Part shown: positions 3,219-49,192 of the stretch, piece by piece
Numbering within the stretch: the stretch's first letter is position 1
How the letters are laid out: each line of letters begins with the position of its first letter
Source of the DNA: Streptomyces seoulensis
GTDB lineage: Bacteria > Actinomycetota > Actinomycetes > Streptomycetales > Streptomycetaceae
Direction: 5' to 3'
Length of the DNA stretch: 64,000 nt
NCBI RefSeq assembly: GCF_004328625.1
Contig: NZ_CP032229.1
Span: forward strand, 496,001 to 560,000
Notes under the pieces: generated by a model
Databases searched by the model: none
What the model was told of the DNA's origin: nothing
The model's input: the letters and a program-made list of their open reading frames with translations, nothing else
Translations under genes and position numbers: made by a program

Positions 3219-4289
3219 TCAGCGGGCCATCTCCTCCTTGAGCGCCGCCACGAAGGTGTCGACGTCGTCCTCGGTGGTGTCGAAGCCGCACATCCAGCGG
3301 ACGTCACCGGCCGCCTCGTCCCAGAAGTAGAAGCGGAACCGCTTCTGCAGCCGGACGCTCACGTCGTGCGGGAGCCGGGCGAAGACGCCGTTGGCCTGCA
3401 CCGGGTGCAGGATCTCCACGCCGTGCACCGCGCGGACGCCCTCGGCGAGCCGCTGGGCCATCTCGTTGGCGTGCCGGGCGTTGCGCAGCCAGAGGTCCTT
3501 GGCGTACAGGGCCTCCAACTGCACGGAGACGAAGCGCATCTTGGACGCGAGCTGCATGGACAGCTTGCGCAGGTGCTTCATGTGGGAGACGGCGTCCTGG
3601 TTGATGACCACGACCGCCTCGCCGAACAGGGCACCGTTCTTCGTCCCGCCCAGCGACAGGATGTCGACGCCGACCGCGTTGGTGAACGCCCGCATGGGGA
3701 CGTTCAGGGAGGCGGCGGCGTTGGATATCCGGGAGCCGTCCAGGTGCACCTTCATGCCGTGCGCGTGGGCGTGTTCGCAGATCGCGCGGATCTCGTCGGG
3801 CGTGTAGAGGGTGCCCAGCTCGGTGGACTGGGTGATCGAGACGACCTGGGGCATCGCCCGGTGCTCGTCGTCCCAGCCGAACGCCTGCCGGTCGATCAGC
3901 TCGGGGGTGAGCTTGCCGTCCGGGGTGGGCACGGTGAGCAGCTTCAGCCCGCCCATCCGCTCGGGCGCGCCACCCTCGTCCACGTTGATGTGCGCGCTCT
4001 CGGCGCAGATCACCGCGCCCCAGCGGTCGGTGACCGCCTGGAGCGCGACCACGTTGGCCCCGGTGCCGTTGAACACCGGGAACGCCTCGGCGGTCGCGCC
4101 GAAGTGGCTGCGGATGATCCGCTGGAGGTTCTCGGTGTACTCGTCCTCGCCGTACGCGACCTGGTGGCCGCCGTTGGCCAGGGCCACGGCGGCGAGCACC
4201 TCGGGGTGCGCCCCGGCGTAGTTGTCGCTGGCGAAACCGCGGACCTGCGGGTCGTGGTGACGACGGGCGTCGGTCCTGGGAGGGTTCAC
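3219..4289 (-). CDS. Low-specificity L-threonine aldolase-type PLP enzyme
   Basis: A 356-residue fold-type I PLP enzyme of the beta-eliminating lyase/threonine aldolase family. It has the N-terminal DNYAGAHPE segment, NGTGANV near residue 75, HLDGSR at 182-187, and the PLP lysine in GGTKNG (Lys217). It would cleave L-threonine or allo-threonine to glycine and acetaldehyde. I chose the GTG at 4289 because its GTGA overlaps the stop codon of the upstream SDR gene (translational coupling) and because the reading frame further upstream has no family similarity. Last gene of the DUF6421-SDR-aldolase unit. Confidence 0.9.
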   Translation of the reverse strand: MNPPRTDARRHHDPQVRGFASDNYAGAHPEVLAAVALANGGHQVAYGEDEYTENLQRIIRSHFGATAEAFPVFNGTGANVVALQAVTDRWGAVICAESAHINVDEGGAPERMGGLKLLTVPTPDGKLTPELIDRQAFGWDDEHRAMPQVVSITQSTELGTLYTPDEIRAICEHAHAHGMKVHLDGSRISNAAASLNVPMRAFTNAVGVDILSLGGTKNGALFGEAVVVINQDAVSHMKHLRKLSMQLASKMRFVSVQLEALYAKDLWLRNARHANEMAQRLAEGVRAVHGVEILHPVQANGVFARLPHDVSVRLQKRFRFYFWDEAAGDVRWMCGFDTTEDDVDTFVAALKEEMAR

Positions 4290-44558: not shown

Positions 44559-44608
44559 GCCGCCCCGGCTCTCCGTCCTGACCAGCCGCCCCGGCTCTCC
44601 GTCCTGAC
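44559..44608. repeat. Tandem 24-base direct repeat
   Basis: GCCGCCCCGGCTCTCCGTCC plus TGAC occurs at 44559-44582 and again at 44585-44608, 26 bases apart. The second copy touches the stop codon of the yjbQ-like gene. It looks like a local duplication of the 3' end. Confidence 0.75.
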
Positions 44609-45030
44609 TACCCGAGGAAGCTCAGCCGCACCTGACGGTTCGGGTTGTCCCTGTTCGTGTCCACCAGGCACACCGACTGCCAGGTGCCCAGTTCCAGGCT
44701 GCCGCCGATGACCGGGAGTGTGGCGTGGGGCGGGACGATCGCCGGGAGGACGTGGTCGCGGCCGTGGCCGGGGCTGCCGTGGCGGTGCTGCCAGCGGTCG
44801 TCCGCCGGGAGCAGGGTGTGCAGGGCGGTGAGGAGGTCGTCGTCGCTGCCGGCGCCGGTCTCGATGACGGCGACGCCGCAGGTCGCGTGGGGGACGAAGA
44901 TGTTGAGCAGGCCGTCGCGGCCCGCCGCGACCTCGCCCAGGAAGTGTTCGCACTCCTGAGTGAGGTCCACGACCCGCTCACGGGACCCGGTGGCGACGTC
45001 GAGCACGCGTGTGGTGAAGGCATCTGGCAT
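44608..45030 (-). CDS. YjbQ/UPF0047 family protein (secondary thiamine-phosphate synthase)
   Basis: A 140-residue single-domain protein. Family blocks are present: LNIFVPHATCGVAVIETG, HRHGSPGHGRDHVLPAIVPPHATLPVIGG and LGTWQSVCLVDTNRDNPNRQVRLSFLG, with metal-ligand histidines in the HG-x-x-G-H segment. Members have weak thiamine-phosphate synthase activity; the physiological role is unclear. ATG at 45030 is used with GAGGA upstream. It is divergent from the leader peptide and ssu operon. Confidence 0.9.
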   Translation of the reverse strand: MPDAFTTRVLDVATGSRERVVDLTQECEHFLGEVAAGRDGLLNIFVPHATCGVAVIETGAGSDDDLLTALHTLLPADDRWQHRHGSPGHGRDHVLPAIVPPHATLPVIGGSLELGTWQSVCLVDTNRDNPNRQVRLSFLG

Positions 45031-45115
45031 GCCTCCATCCTCGCCCACCGTCCGCGTTTCACGCCTTTCGGCACGGCTGTCCGCCGAGACGGGAAGTCCA
45101 CTGACCGAGACACCG

Positions 45116-45145
45116 TTGACCGGCGAACGCCCGCCTGGCTACGTT
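45116..45145 (+). promoter_or_regulatory. Promoter of the ssu leader/operon
   Basis: TTGACC (45116-45121) and TACGTT (45140-45145) are separated by 18 bases. The predicted transcription start falls at or within a base or two of the leader peptide ATG at 45153, giving a leaderless mRNA. Confidence 0.65.
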
Positions 45146-45152
45146 CACCGGC

Positions 45153-45236
45153 ATGTCGCGTTCAGCCCTGCTCACCACGCGCGGTCACATCGACCTGCTC
45201 CGGGTGGCCTCCGCCGCGTGTCGCCCCGGCCGCTGA
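45153..45236 (+). CDS. Cys-containing leader peptide of the ssu operon
   Basis: A 27-residue open reading frame beginning MSRSALLTTRGHIDLL and ending RVASAACRPGR. It matches a pattern I know from Streptomyces leader peptides upstream of sulfur genes: an L-L-T-x-R-H/GHIDL-like core and a Cys codon close to the C-terminus (TGT, position 23). No Shine-Dalgarno precedes the ATG; a -10 box ends seven bases before it. It is followed by a 143-base region of paired segments before ssuC. Ribosome stalling at the Cys codon when sulfur is low would be the expected sensor. Confidence 0.85.
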   Translation: MSRSALLTTRGHIDLLRVASAACRPGR

Positions 45237-45304
45237 CGCCCTTCCCCCGCTTCACCTTCGCCCTTTCTCCGGGCCGCCTCGCGTTCCCCGCCCGCCGCAC
45301 CTGA

Positions 45305-45374
45305 CCCTCCGCTGAGCCGAGGGCGCCGTGGCGGCGACGGGCGCACCCTCGTTCCCGCTCTCCACCCTGTGGAG
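45305..45374 (+). promoter_or_regulatory. ssu attenuator region with RBS-sequestering hairpin
   Basis: Two layers of pairing are visible. CGAGGG (45318-45323) can pair with CCCTC (45305-45309) or with CCCTCG (45346-45351), so the two are mutually exclusive. Downstream, CTCCAC (45360-45365) and GTGGAG (45369-45374) form a perfect six-pair hairpin with a three-base loop, and GTGGAG is the ribosome-binding site of ssuC, five bases before its ATG. Together with the leader peptide this suggests translational attenuation. Confidence 0.55.
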
Positions 45375-45379
45375 CACCC

Positions 45380-46249
45380 ATGAGCATCAGCCATGCCCCG
45401 CCGCACCCGTCCGGCGCGGCGGGCGCAGCCGAGCTGCCCGCCTCCCCCGCCCTGCAACGCCTCGTCCCCGCCTCCTCCCGCCGCACCCGGCTCCCCCGCT
45501 GGCTGCGGCGCACGACCGGCCCGGCAGCCCTCCTGATCCTGTGGCAAGTCCTCAGCGCAACTGGGGCGTTGGCACCTGATGTACTCGCCTCACCGGGCCG
45601 GATCGCCCATGTCGCCGGTGATCTCATGGCCGACGGTTCACTGCCCTCCGCGATGGGCATCTCCCTGCAACGCGTCGCCGGCGGTCTGGTCCTCGGTACC
45701 GTCGTCGGCACCGGACTCGCCCTGGTTTCCGGGCTGTTCCGCATCGGCGAGGACGTGATCGACGCTCCCGTGCAGATGTTGCGCACCGTGCCGTTCGTGG
45801 GCCTGATCCCGCTGTTCATCATCTGGTTCGGTATCGGCGAGACACCCAAGATCGCCATCATCACGCTGGGCGTGACCTTCCCGCTCTATCTGAACGTCTA
45901 CGCGGGCATTCGCGGCGTCGACTCCCAGCTCATCGAGGCCGGCGAGTCGTTGGGCCTGTCCCGCCGGGGGCTCGTCCGCCATGTGGTGCTGCCGGGTGCC
46001 CTGCCGGGCGCGCTCACCGGTCTGCGCTACTCCCTCGGCATCGCCTGGCTCGCCCTGGTCTTCGCGGAGCAGGTCAACGCCGATTCCGGCATCGGCTTTC
46101 TGATGGTCCAGGCCCGCGACTTCCTGCGGACCGACGTGATCGTGGTCTGCCTGATCGTCTACGCCTTCCTCGGCCTCCTCGCCGACTTCGTCGTCCGCTC
46201 TCTCGAAAGGCTGTTGCTGCGATGGCGACCGACGTTCACGGGCCGTTGA
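45380..46249 (+). CDS. ssuC: Aliphatic sulfonate ABC transporter permease
   Basis: A 289-residue permease of the SsuC/TauC family with about six membrane helices after a 45-residue Pro/Ala-rich N-terminus. The cytoplasmic EAA loop is seen as EAGESLGLSRRGLVRHVVLPGALPG, which docks to the ATPase. It takes up sulfonates as a sulfur source with SsuB and SsuA. The ssuB start lies 28 bases inside its 3' end. Translation is probably gated by the hairpin over its ribosome-binding site. Confidence 0.88.
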   Translation: MSISHAPPHPSGAAGAAELPASPALQRLVPASSRRTRLPRWLRRTTGPAALLILWQVLSATGALAPDVLASPGRIAHVAGDLMADGSLPSAMGISLQRVAGGLVLGTVVGTGLALVSGLFRIGEDVIDAPVQMLRTVPFVGLIPLFIIWFGIGETPKIAIITLGVTFPLYLNVYAGIRGVDSQLIEAGESLGLSRRGLVRHVVLPGALPGALTGLRYSLGIAWLALVFAEQVNADSGIGFLMVQARDFLRTDVIVVCLIVYAFLGLLADFVVRSLERLLLRWRPTFTGR

Positions 46250-46968
46250 GCCCCGCGACCACCCAGGCCGTGCATGTCGAGGGGCTGACCCGTGCCTTCG
46301 ACGGCCGCGCGGTCATCGACGACGTTCATCTCGACCTGGCGCCGGGCGAGTTCGTCGCCCTGCTCGGCCGCAGCGGGTGCGGCAAGTCCACGCTGCTGCG
46401 GGTGCTCGCCGGGCTCGACCGGGACATCGACGGCACGGTACTGGTCCCCCGCCGCCGCGCGGTCGCCTTCCAGGCACCCCGGCTCATGCCGTGGAAACGG
46501 GTGTGGCGCAACGTCCTGCTGGGGCTGCCCGGCAGGCCCGAACGCACCCTCGCCGAGCAGGCGTTGGAGGAGGTCGGGCTGGGCCATCGGGTGAACGCCT
46601 GGCCCAAGACCCTCTCCGGCGGCGAGGCCCAGCGCGTCTCCCTCGCGCGTGCCCTGGTCCGCGAGCCCGATCTCCTGCTGCTGGACGAGCCGTTCGGCGC
46701 GCTGGACGCACTGACCCGGATCAACGCGCAGCGTCTGGTGGGTGAGCTGTGGCAGCGCCGGGGCTGCGCGGTCCTGCTCGTCACGCACGACGTGGAGGAA
46801 GCCGTACTGCTGGCCGACCGGGTGCTGGTGATGGACGGCGGCCGCATCGCGCACGAGCAGCGCGTCGAACTCGACCGGCCCCGCGAACTCACCGACCCCC
46901 GCTTCGCCGCGATCCGAGCCGATCTGCTGGCCCGCCTCGGCGTCACGCCGGCGGCCGAAGCGGCCTGA
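46222..46968 (+). CDS. ssuB: Aliphatic sulfonate ABC transporter ATP-binding protein
   Basis: A 248-residue ABC ATPase. Walker A is GRSGCGKST (49-57), Q-loop VAFQAPRLMPWKRV, signature LSGGEAQRV, Walker B LLLLDEPFGALD, and H-loop VTHDVEEA. The MPWKRVWRN and FGALDALTR blocks are typical of the nitrate/sulfonate/taurine subfamily. It overlaps ssuC by 28 bases, showing coupling. A DPRF-containing tail is normal. Confidence 0.92.
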   Translation: MATDVHGPLSPATTQAVHVEGLTRAFDGRAVIDDVHLDLAPGEFVALLGRSGCGKSTLLRVLAGLDRDIDGTVLVPRRRAVAFQAPRLMPWKRVWRNVLLGLPGRPERTLAEQALEEVGLGHRVNAWPKTLSGGEAQRVSLARALVREPDLLLLDEPFGALDALTRINAQRLVGELWQRRGCAVLLVTHDVEEAVLLADRVLVMDGGRIAHEQRVELDRPRELTDPRFAAIRADLLARLGVTPAAEAA

Positions 46969-47004
46969 ACCTCCCCTCGCCCTCACCGAATGAACGGACC
47001 CTCC

Positions 47005-48018
47005 ATGCGACGACTCCTGGTCCCCGCAGCGCTGCTCCTCCCCCTTACCCTCGTGCTCACCTCCTGCGGTGGGAACTCCGCCGCCGACACGGGTGCGCAG
47101 ATCGACGGCTCGGGCTCCGTCACCCTCGCCGTCGGCGACCAGAAGGGCGGCTCCGAGGCCATCCTGCGGGCCGCCGGGGAGCTGAAGAACCTGGACTACC
47201 GGATCAAGTGGTCGACCTTCACCTCCGGACCACCCCTGCTGGAGGCGGTCAACGCCGGGGCCGTGGACGTCGGCGGCGTCGGCAACACCCCGCCCGTCTT
47301 CGCGGCGGGCGCCGGCTCCAAGATCTCGGTGGTGGCCGCCTGGCACGGCACGTCCCGGGGCGACGCCATCCTCGTACCCGACGACTCCGAGCTGACCGGC
47401 CCCAAGCAGCTCAAGGGCAAGTCCGTGGCCGTCGCCCAGGGCTCCTCCGCCCACTACCAACTGGTCGCCTCCCTCGAAGCCGCCGGGCTCCAGCTGAAGG
47501 ACATCAAAGTCAAGTACCTCCAGCCGGCCGACGCGCTCGCCGCTTTCAACTCCGGCAAGGTCGACGCCTGGGCGGTCTGGGACCCGTACACCTCGCAGGT
47601 TCTCCAGGGCAAACAGGGGCGCGTGCTCACGACCGGTGACGGTGTCACCAACGGCCTCTCCTTCCAGGTCGCCTCGCCCGCCGCGCTGCGGAACTCCAAG
47701 AAGGCCGCCGCCGTCAAGGACTACCTGGCCAGGCTGCGGCGCGCGCAGGACTGGGTGCACGGCCACCAGGAGGAGTGGGCCAAGGTGTGGGCGAAGGACA
47801 CCGGACTGCCGTACGACGTGGCGCTCGCCTCCGTACACCGGACCAACGCCACCCGGGTCGCCGTCGCCGTGGACAAGCCCCTGGTCGCCTCCGAGCAGCG
47901 GATCGCAGACACCTTCACCGAGCTGCACCTCATCCCGAAGAAGGTCGACTTCGGCGACTTCGTGGACCCGCGCTTCAACGGCGGCCTGCCGCCCTCCACC
48001 ACTCCGGCCAAGCACTGA
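47005..48018 (+). CDS. ssuA: Aliphatic sulfonate ABC transporter substrate-binding lipoprotein
   Basis: A 337-residue SsuA-family binding protein. The signal is MRRLLVPAALLLPLTLVLTS with lipobox LTS-C (Cys21). The mature part has LAVGDQKGGSEAILRAAGELK, then GVGNTPPVFAAGAGSK and SSAHYQLVASLEAAGL, the blocks that form the sulfonate pocket in this family. An in-frame ATG at 46990 would add five residues; 47005 was chosen for the shorter signal and GGA upstream. Third gene of the operon. Confidence 0.9.
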   Translation: MRRLLVPAALLLPLTLVLTSCGGNSAADTGAQIDGSGSVTLAVGDQKGGSEAILRAAGELKNLDYRIKWSTFTSGPPLLEAVNAGAVDVGGVGNTPPVFAAGAGSKISVVAAWHGTSRGDAILVPDDSELTGPKQLKGKSVAVAQGSSAHYQLVASLEAAGLQLKDIKVKYLQPADALAAFNSGKVDAWAVWDPYTSQVLQGKQGRVLTTGDGVTNGLSFQVASPAALRNSKKAAAVKDYLARLRRAQDWVHGHQEEWAKVWAKDTGLPYDVALASVHRTNATRVAVAVDKPLVASEQRIADTFTELHLIPKKVDFGDFVDPRFNGGLPPSTTPAKH

Positions 48019-48034: not shown

Positions 48035-49192
48035 ATGACCGTACGACTCCACTGGTTCCTGCCGACGGGCGGCGACGGCCGCACCCTCATCGACCGGCAC
48101 GCCTACGGTTCCAACATCGGCCGCGAGACCCGCGGCCTGCGCACCCCCGACATCGAGTACCTGGCGCAGATAGCCAAGGCCGCCGAGCAACTGGGCTTCG
48201 AGGCGGTGCTCACTCCGACCGGCACCTGGTGCGAGGACGCCTGGCTTACCACGGTGGCCCTCGCCCAGCACACCGAACGCCTGAAGTTCCTGGTCGCCTT
48301 CCGCCCCGGCCTTCTCTCCCCCACCCTGGCCGCCCAGATGGCCGCGACCTACCAGCGCCTCACCCGAGGACGGCTGCTGCTCAACGTCGTCACCGGCGGC
48401 GACTCCGCCGAACAACGCCGCTTCGGCGACCATCTCGACCACGACCGGCGCTACGAACGCACCGACGAGTTCCTCTCCGTCGTACGCGGTGTCTGGCAGG
48501 GCGAGCCCTACGACTTCCACGGCGCCCACTACGAGGTGCACGGCGGCCTCACCTCCCTCCCGCCGAACCCGGTACCGGAGATCTTCTTCGGCGGCTCCTC
48601 CCAGGCCGCCGGTCCGGTGGCCGCCCGCCACGCCGACGTCTATCTGACCTGGGGCGAGCCGCCGGCCCAGGTGAAGGAGAAGATCGACTGGATCCGGTCG
48701 CTGGCCGAGCGGGAGGGGCGCACGGTCCGGTTCGGCATCCGGCTGCACACCATCTCCCGCGACTCCTCCGCCGACGCCTGGTCGACGGCGAACCGGCTCC
48801 TCGACGACCTCGACTCCGACACCATCGCCGCCGCCCAGGCCGCCCTGGGACGCAGCGAGTCGGTCGGCCAGCGGCGGATGCTGGAGCTGCACGGCGGCTC
48901 CCGCGACCATCTGGAGATCTACCCCAACCTCTGGGCGGGTGTCGGCCTGGTCCGCGGTGGCGCCGGCACCGCCCTGGTCGGCAGCCACGCGGAGGTCGCC
49001 GACCGGATCGAGGAGTACCACTCCCTCGGTGTCGAACACTTCGTGCTCTCCGGATATCCGCATCTGGAGGAGGCGTACTGGTTCGGCGAGGGCGTGATCC
49101 CCGAACTGTCCGCCCGTGGGCTGCTCTCCCCCGGCACGGCGTCCCGGGCCACCGGGCGTCCGGCCCCGCTCCTGGTCGCGCGCGGCCGCTGA
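48035..49192 (+). CDS. ssuD: FMNH2-dependent alkanesulfonate monooxygenase
   Basis: A 385-residue LLM-class flavin monooxygenase close to E. coli SsuD in length. It has MTVRLHWFLPTGGDG at the start, TPTGTWCEDAW (Cys66, equivalent to the SsuD active-site Cys), LLNVVTGGDSAEQRRFGDHLDHDRRYERT and IFFGGSSQAAG (phosphate binding). It desulfonates alkanesulfonates, releasing sulfite. The partner reductase SsuE is not in the operon. The GGGAGG upstream of ATG is seven bases away. Last gene of ssuCBAD. Confidence 0.92.
   Translation: MTVRLHWFLPTGGDGRTLIDRHAYGSNIGRETRGLRTPDIEYLAQIAKAAEQLGFEAVLTPTGTWCEDAWLTTVALAQHTERLKFLVAFRPGLLSPTLAAQMAATYQRLTRGRLLLNVVTGGDSAEQRRFGDHLDHDRRYERTDEFLSVVRGVWQGEPYDFHGAHYEVHGGLTSLPPNPVPEIFFGGSSQAAGPVAARHADVYLTWGEPPAQVKEKIDWIRSLAEREGRTVRFGIRLHTISRDSSADAWSTANRLLDDLDSDTIAAAQAALGRSESVGQRRMLELHGGSRDHLEIYPNLWAGVGLVRGGAGTALVGSHAEVADRIEEYHSLGVEHFVLSGYPHLEEAYWFGEGVIPELSARGLLSPGTASRATGRPAPLLVARGR

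Follow-up and report, generated by a model that had tools for sequence, protein, structure and literature searches.

A probable leaderless leader peptide with a near-invariant UGU cysteine codon upstream of the predicted sulfonate operon of Streptomyces seoulensis

Leaderless, Cys-rich leader peptides of mycobacteria are reportedly the subject of Canestrari 2020. In the accessible portion of Shell 2015 (PMC4633059), such leaders are placed ahead of cysA2 and nirA in mycobacteria, and the available part of Seliverstov 2005 (PMC1262725) describes Cys leaders before cys operons of Mycobacterium and P. acnes and before cbs of B. longum. For Streptomyces, the eight leaders listed in the available text on S. 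lividans (PMC8079986) relate to Leu, Trp, Ala, Ile, Met, and Thr, with none given there as Cys-dependent or as preceding ssu genes. Here we examined a 64,000-nt stretch of the S. seoulensis genome (NZ_CP032229.1, positions 496,001 to 560,000; hereafter the window), in which an initial annotation had proposed a leaderless leader peptide with a Cys codon ahead of the sulfonate operon. As claimed, the leader was found to consist of 27 codons followed by TGA, with TGT as codon 23 and with 143 nt separating the frame from the ATG of ssuC (Table 1). The assignment as a Cys-codon leader peptide, predicted to be leaderless, is well supported by the family match, conservation, and promoter spacing described below. 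Among the downstream ssu genes, ssuA alone passed an NCBIfam cut-off; the other three had a sulfonate model as their best match at a sub-threshold score. A YjbQ/UPF0047 gene (44608-45048, minus strand) is divergent from the leader and scored 64.2 with TIGR00149, narrowly below the cut-off of 67.75.

Table 1. Features of the leader region and the downstream ssu genes (window positions).
Feature	Position	Strand	Basis
-35 element TTGACC (predicted)	45116-45121	+	18-nt spacer to -10
-10 element TACGTT (predicted)	45140-45145	+	7 nt 5' of ATG; conserved spacing
Leader peptide ORF, MSRSALLTTRGHIDLLRVASAACRPGR then stop	45153-45236	+	Translation; NF042934 score; conservation 5' of ssuC
HIDLLR core motif (family HxDLxR)	45186-45203	+	D and R constant in 216/216 leaders
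Presumed sensor codon TGT (Cys23, position H+11)	45219-45221	+	TGT in 79/79 ssu leaders
C-rich, G-poor tract directly 3' of leader stop, possible Rho loading region	45237-45296	+	Composition
Hairpin CTCCAC-CCT-GTGGAG burying ssuC SD (GGAG, 45371-45374)	45360-45374	+	Enriched stem
ssuC, sulfonate ABC permease	45380-46249	+	PF00528; best NCBIfam SsuC, 235.8 bits, below cut-off 347
ssuB, ABC ATPase	46222-46968	+	PF00005; best NCBIfam aliphatic sulfonate ATPase, 250.5 bits, below cut-off 395
ssuA, sulfonate-binding protein	46990-48018	+	TIGR01728 SsuA_fam, 200.1 bits, cut-off 163.5
ssuD-like alkanesulfonate monooxygenase	48035-49192	+	PF00296; TIGR03565, 470.6 bits, below cut-off 518.2

The closest catalogued relative was the NCBIfam model NF042934 (cis_reg_atten, 'putative leader peptide'), for which the leader scored 30.8 bits against a cut-off of 27; when compared by model name and scores, none of the tested defining features failed; the ORF is short and shares the position 5' of a sulfur gene. 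The mycobacterial Cys-rich leader models NF042936 and NF042933 gave 25.6 and 17.1 bits, respectively, below their cut-offs of 45. Mycobacterial leaders carry a run of Cys codons, whereas the ssu leader has one Cys codon in 27; they are leaderless, and the predicted promoter spacing of the ssu leader fits the same organization. The gene types behind the mycobacterial leaders Ms4527A (nirA) and Ms5788A (cysA2) were also found behind two further leaders of this genome (L002 and L004). The leaders described in the available part of Seliverstov 2005 (PMC1262725) resemble the ssu leader in (i) lying near the gene, (ii) having no conserved terminator hairpin, and (iii) having pyrimidine motifs in the spacer, but differ in their Cys-codon runs, and the Cysteine section, as available, includes no Streptomyces cys leader. 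The S. lividans leaders are, in the portion available, likewise from Streptomyces and mostly leaderless, with several Cys in that of metL (PMC8079986). According to the accessible text on uORFC-8-2, which precedes cysS in Rhodobacterales, this Cys-codon uORF is also a presumed Cys-tRNA sensor but differs in its two tandem Cys codons, dominance of UGC, intrinsic terminator, and phylum (PMC8632094). Two traits of trp-type attenuators were absent from the ssu leader, with no intrinsic terminator found within 45040-45500 and a single Cys codon in place of tandem control codons. TnaC-type arrest peptides combine an output through Rho with a conserved nascent-chain motif and a C-rich tract past the stop. 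The last two features are common to the ssu leader, which differs in that its presumed stall codon precedes the stop and its proposed signal is not a free amino acid. It also displays the arrest-peptide trait of amino acid-level conservation upstream of the presumed stall site, where D and R are kept with varied codons.

Conservation of the frame, which had been set as a check on the original proposal, was examined in 81 sequences limited to close relatives, namely the window and the top 80 among 526 relatives of ssuC (ssuC identity within Streptomyces reaching 96%). The leader motif was found 5' of ssuC in 79 of the 81. Of the two misses, one has the leader with Arg replaced by Trp (L116) and the other lies on a contig that stops 27 nt upstream of ssuC and is not assessable (L065); the leader is thus present in every one of the 80 sequences that can be assessed. 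The frame length is 84 nt throughout the 79, the start codon is ATG in 78 and ACG in one, and the Cys23 codon is TGT in every one. At fourfold third positions the mean pairwise difference was 6.6% in the leader versus 35% in ssuC, where the lowest 18-codon block gave 10.1%; the low synonymous variation indicates that the leader is therefore constrained at the nucleotide level as well. The first ssuC codons, ATGAGCATCAGCCATGCC (45380-45397), also seem to be conserved at the nucleotide level in many ssuC loci; the search seeds included the peptide MSISHAPP, and this conservation in part reflects how the loci were selected.

The promoter assignment likewise drew on these loci. One of the 79 ssu leaders has no TAnnnT -10 element; among the other 78, the annotated gap of seven bases between the -10 hexamer and the ATG was reproduced in 76 (6 nt in the other two). 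A TTGACx hexamer was positioned 5' of the -10 at 18 nt in 76 of the 78 and at 17 nt in two. A generic sigma-70 scan returned no promoter at the leader, and the promoter call rests on conservation and spacing for this reason. The reported lack of a Shine-Dalgarno (SD) sequence held throughout, as no SD-like 4-mer was detected upstream of the start in any of the 79 orthologous leaders. The -10 spacing implies that the predicted mRNA is leaderless. No match was found for the leader peptide in Pfam or for the leader region in Rfam. Inspection of the common ssu sequence by eye showed a hairpin at the Cys codon (GCCGCG/CGCGGC), of which the window has a variant with a C-C mismatch.

The leader is a member of a catalogued actinobacterial leader-peptide family that probably senses Cys supply. 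Five places in this genome exceeded the NF042934 cut-off and a sixth scored 19.6 bits; the six leaders precede genes for a cysteine dioxygenase, a sulfite/nitrite reductase, SsuC, a rhodanese, a glutathione S-transferase (GST)-like protein, and a 2OG oxygenase. All 101 same-genus genomes, counting the present one, had a member over the cut-off, and a class-level set of 148 genomes, 11 of them from the same genus, gave such members in 96. A Streptomyces set of 135 leaders was assembled from all 129 matches at E <= 0.01 in 13 complete genomes plus the six of this genome, and the downstream gene was picked mechanically for 133. These genes were assigned to the Pfam families NIR_SIR (14), rhodanese (14), PALP (13), luciferase-like (12), CDO_I (11), ABC permease (11), flavin reductase (9), sodium:dicarboxylate symporter (7), sulfatase (7), GST_C_2 (7), and ROK (5), with others fewer; all 13 PALP genes match cysteine synthase and 9 of the 11 permeases match SsuC. 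Eight of these families (the list above without the symporter, GST, and ROK) can plausibly be linked to sulfur and account for 91 of the 133 genes; together with the NF042934 match this upholds the suggested kinship with leaders before Streptomyces sulfur genes, and across the 14 genomes the leaders mostly lie in front of sulfur genes. Cysteine dioxygenase is an odd neighbor if the response is to starvation. Two divergent leader pairs were also observed, on G120:C251 (3248-3301, minus, and 3429-3485, plus; about 130 nt between core matches) and on G224:C520 (3768-3818, minus, and 3886-3939, plus; about 70 nt).

The most constant feature of the family was the spelling of one codon. With the H of HxDLxR taken as position 0, 125 of the 135 Streptomyces leaders have Cys at +11, spelled TGT in 123, and position +11 was TGT in all 81 non-Streptomyces leaders kept, from 24 GTDB families. 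The pooled 216 leaders, which are mutually related and were collected with a protein profile, have 204 TGT, two TGC, and ten other codons at +11, that is, TGT at 204 of 206 Cys-bearing positions. The non-Streptomyces candidates came from 27 fetched loci and 60 places chosen among the matches listed (high scores first, some skipped); of these 87, 84 matched the pattern and 81 were kept, with a keeping score that gave one point for any Cys irrespective of codon. Left out were L273, L276, and L332 (unmatched), L318, L327, and L334 (dropped), and L252 (Streptomyces). TGT was also found at +11 in 25 of 25 further same-genus genomes (25 of the 30 loci L013-L042, all top-scoring matches) and in the three poly-Cys leaders examined (L247, L249, and L250). 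By comparison, TGT was used at 41 of the 226 further Cys codons that lie past the motif and before the stop (23/112 in Streptomyces, 18/114 in other genera), and it is the rarer spelling in coding-like ORFs, with shares of 13.8% in the window (159 Cys codons) and 10.8% in the 80 loci (554 Cys codons). Among 124 distinct Streptomyces leaders, T occupied the third position in 95% at +11 versus at most 25% at the other 20 tabulated positions. The Asp codons of HxDLxR in the 216 leaders were GAC (169) or GAT (47) and Arg was encoded by all six codons; the constancy of D and R is partly built in, as the profile and patterns required D or D/N and R/K, while the codon variety is not. One tRNA-Cys gene was found among 30 tRNA loci scanned (of 67 tRNA matches), with anticodon GCA, which would read UGU by wobble. 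The near-invariant UGU spelling supports the +11 Cys codon as a putative functional site, and its constancy beside codon-free D and R is read as pointing to selection on UGU decoding plus a nascent-chain role. For specialists, this near-invariant UGU beside a conserved nascent-chain motif should be the surprising part. Neither single-Cys leaders in Streptomyces nor a UGU rule was described in the text covered by searches of the open PMC literature, motif strings included, and as far as these searches show the rule at +11 is new.

Of the ten Streptomyces leaders without Cys at +11, seven (L005, L187, L191, L218, L221, L225, and L233) are of an RVCSA type, L187 reading RVCSS, and have their Cys at +7, encoded by TGC in all seven; six of them lie before genes with N-termini similar to that of the GST-like protein encoded behind L005, and no downstream gene was found for L233. 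This subtype may sense nothing, or something else. Elsewhere, L241 has Cys at both +7 and +11, L190 has zero Cys from motif to stop, and the sensor codon is TGC in L161 and L202. In genome G098, two leaders (L152 and L217) lack the sensor Cys codon, with TGA in its place ahead of cysteine synthase and TAT ahead of ssu, and TGT is retained in the sir leader (L163).

Folding and duplex calculations gave different results for different downstream genes. The nine flavin-reductase leaders (L208, L209, L210, L214, L216, L220, L226, L228, and L231) all carry, by reading, an anti-SD in codons 5-7 (TCCTTCT/AGAAGGA), and in folding their SD is buried by the leader; SD accessibility was 0.12 in free RNA, 0.36 with the leader masked, and 0.30 after synonymous shuffling. 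This anti-SD is perfect and uses the rare Leu codon CTT, and the leaders end 37-46 nt before the gene. In the 14 rhodanese leaders (L004, L189, L192-L199, L201, L203, L205, and L215), masking of the whole leader changed accessibility from 0.34 to 0.36, and a single ribosome at Cys opened the SD (0.51). Their GGGCAGT was seen by eye to complement ACTGCCC just 5' of the SD in 12 of 14, L192 being off by one base and L205 having no SD-side copy. For the sir leaders (n = 13) there was little effect (0.28 to 0.30). The family may have more than one output mode.

Our main reading, which we put at about 70%, is that the ssu leader belongs to the NF042934 family as a leaderless, cis-acting sensor of charged tRNA-Cys, with a stall at UGU raising ssuCBAD; Cys sensing by the leader appears likely from the comparisons above. 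Ribosomes would initiate at the 5' AUG, thread HIDLLRVASAA into the exit tunnel, and reach the lone UGU four codons ahead of the last sense codon, where scarce Cys-tRNA would cause a stall and ssuCBAD expression would rise. The frame and its conservation, the spacing of the promoter, the family match, the sulfur-gene neighbors, and the near-invariance of UGU are displayed by the sequences themselves; stalling, its direction, and the output step we infer. For the output at ssu, we lean weakly toward transcription attenuation through the C-rich tract over SD sequestration. Rho-dependent attenuation in the C-rich spacer, tuned by the position of the leader ribosome, is a tentative explanation to which we give somewhat over one chance in three. 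In the window, C makes up 58% and G 18% of the 60 nt past the leader stop, and mean C-G over this stretch was 0.33 in 79 ssu leaders and 0.20 in the 135 leaders versus 0.03 (sd 0.16) in 166 background 5' regions, though 6.6% of the latter reach the ssu mean. The leader region has no intrinsic terminator, as Rho would suit; however, a UGU-stalled footprint would, by our estimate, end near the stop codon and leave the tract uncovered, so simple occlusion is not obvious, and the tail length past Cys varies between leaders. Rho was suggested for mycobacterial cys leaders in the available part of Seliverstov 2005 (PMC1262725), where the authors rate their own prediction as rather weak. Translational output, in which leader codons 6-9 would sequester the ssuC SD (TGCTCACCACG with CGTGGAGCA) until leader ribosomes free it, we consider unlikely, at one chance in four. 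The nine-pair complementarity averages 8.24/9 over 78 loci (G-U allowed, best register tried), but permuted loci give 8.25, so covariation is absent. Masking the leader in 39 of 77 loci (12 recodings each) left SD accessibility without improvement (0.115 to 0.10; synonymous leaders 0.102), and in the window the SD was closed (0.01) in every state. Recoded leaders gave better leader-SD duplexes than the actual ones (median percentile 0.77, n = 77); a switch at ssu through such pairing was not supported by duplex energy, covariation, or folding. Such pairing draws support from the anti-SD and masking effect of the flavin-reductase leaders, from the rhodanese duplexes, which beat recoded ones (median percentile 0.02, n = 14), and from translation attenuation as cited for M. 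smegmatis Cys leaders in the available text of PMC13236596. Against it, the sir (0.56) and flavin-reductase (0.31) duplexes were unremarkable, and one ribosome at Cys lowered flavin-reductase accessibility to about 0.06 (0.058), so that queued ribosomes would be required. The ssuC SD itself is often buried locally: a stem of at least 4 over GGAG was found in 55 of 78 loci versus 31.3 (sd 3.9) after upstream-base shuffling, and mean accessibility was 0.148 (n = 73) versus 0.340 in 60 other genes, 25% of which were equally low.

The nature of the signal and of the frame invites further alternatives. The amino acid-level retention of HxDLxR would be accounted for if the leader were an arrest peptide sensitive to free Cys or a different thiol instead of tRNA charging, and such motif conservation is not known from ordinary attenuator peptides; a side-chain role, however, leaves the near-invariant choice of UGU over UGC unexplained, and we regard this explanation as improbable. 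Conservation as a peptide would also suit a product that works in trans or an unregulated remnant, which we consider very improbable given the location mostly before sulfur genes and the very low synonymous variation of the leader (0.066 versus 0.35 in ssuC). Nothing except its shortness speaks for a chance ORF in GC-rich DNA, a notion of negligible probability that is ruled out by conservation in all 80 assessable sequences and by the NF042934 match.

Returning to the tRNA-Cys-sensing leader, a bolder form can be proposed in which the HxDLxR chain primes the ribosome and a single UGU decoded by wobble, not UGC, is the functional codon class-wide, hypersensitive to charged or modified (sulfur-bearing) tRNA-Cys, such that a one-codon sensor would run a multi-operon sulfur regulon with no transcription factor; we offer this speculatively, as more probably wrong than right. 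The near-invariance of UGU predicts that a TGT to TGC change would alter regulation with the peptide kept the same, which would separate decoding from peptide chemistry. The leader is likely a direct sulfur-status switch for Streptomyces, and tiny leaders of this kind could control many of its sulfur operons.
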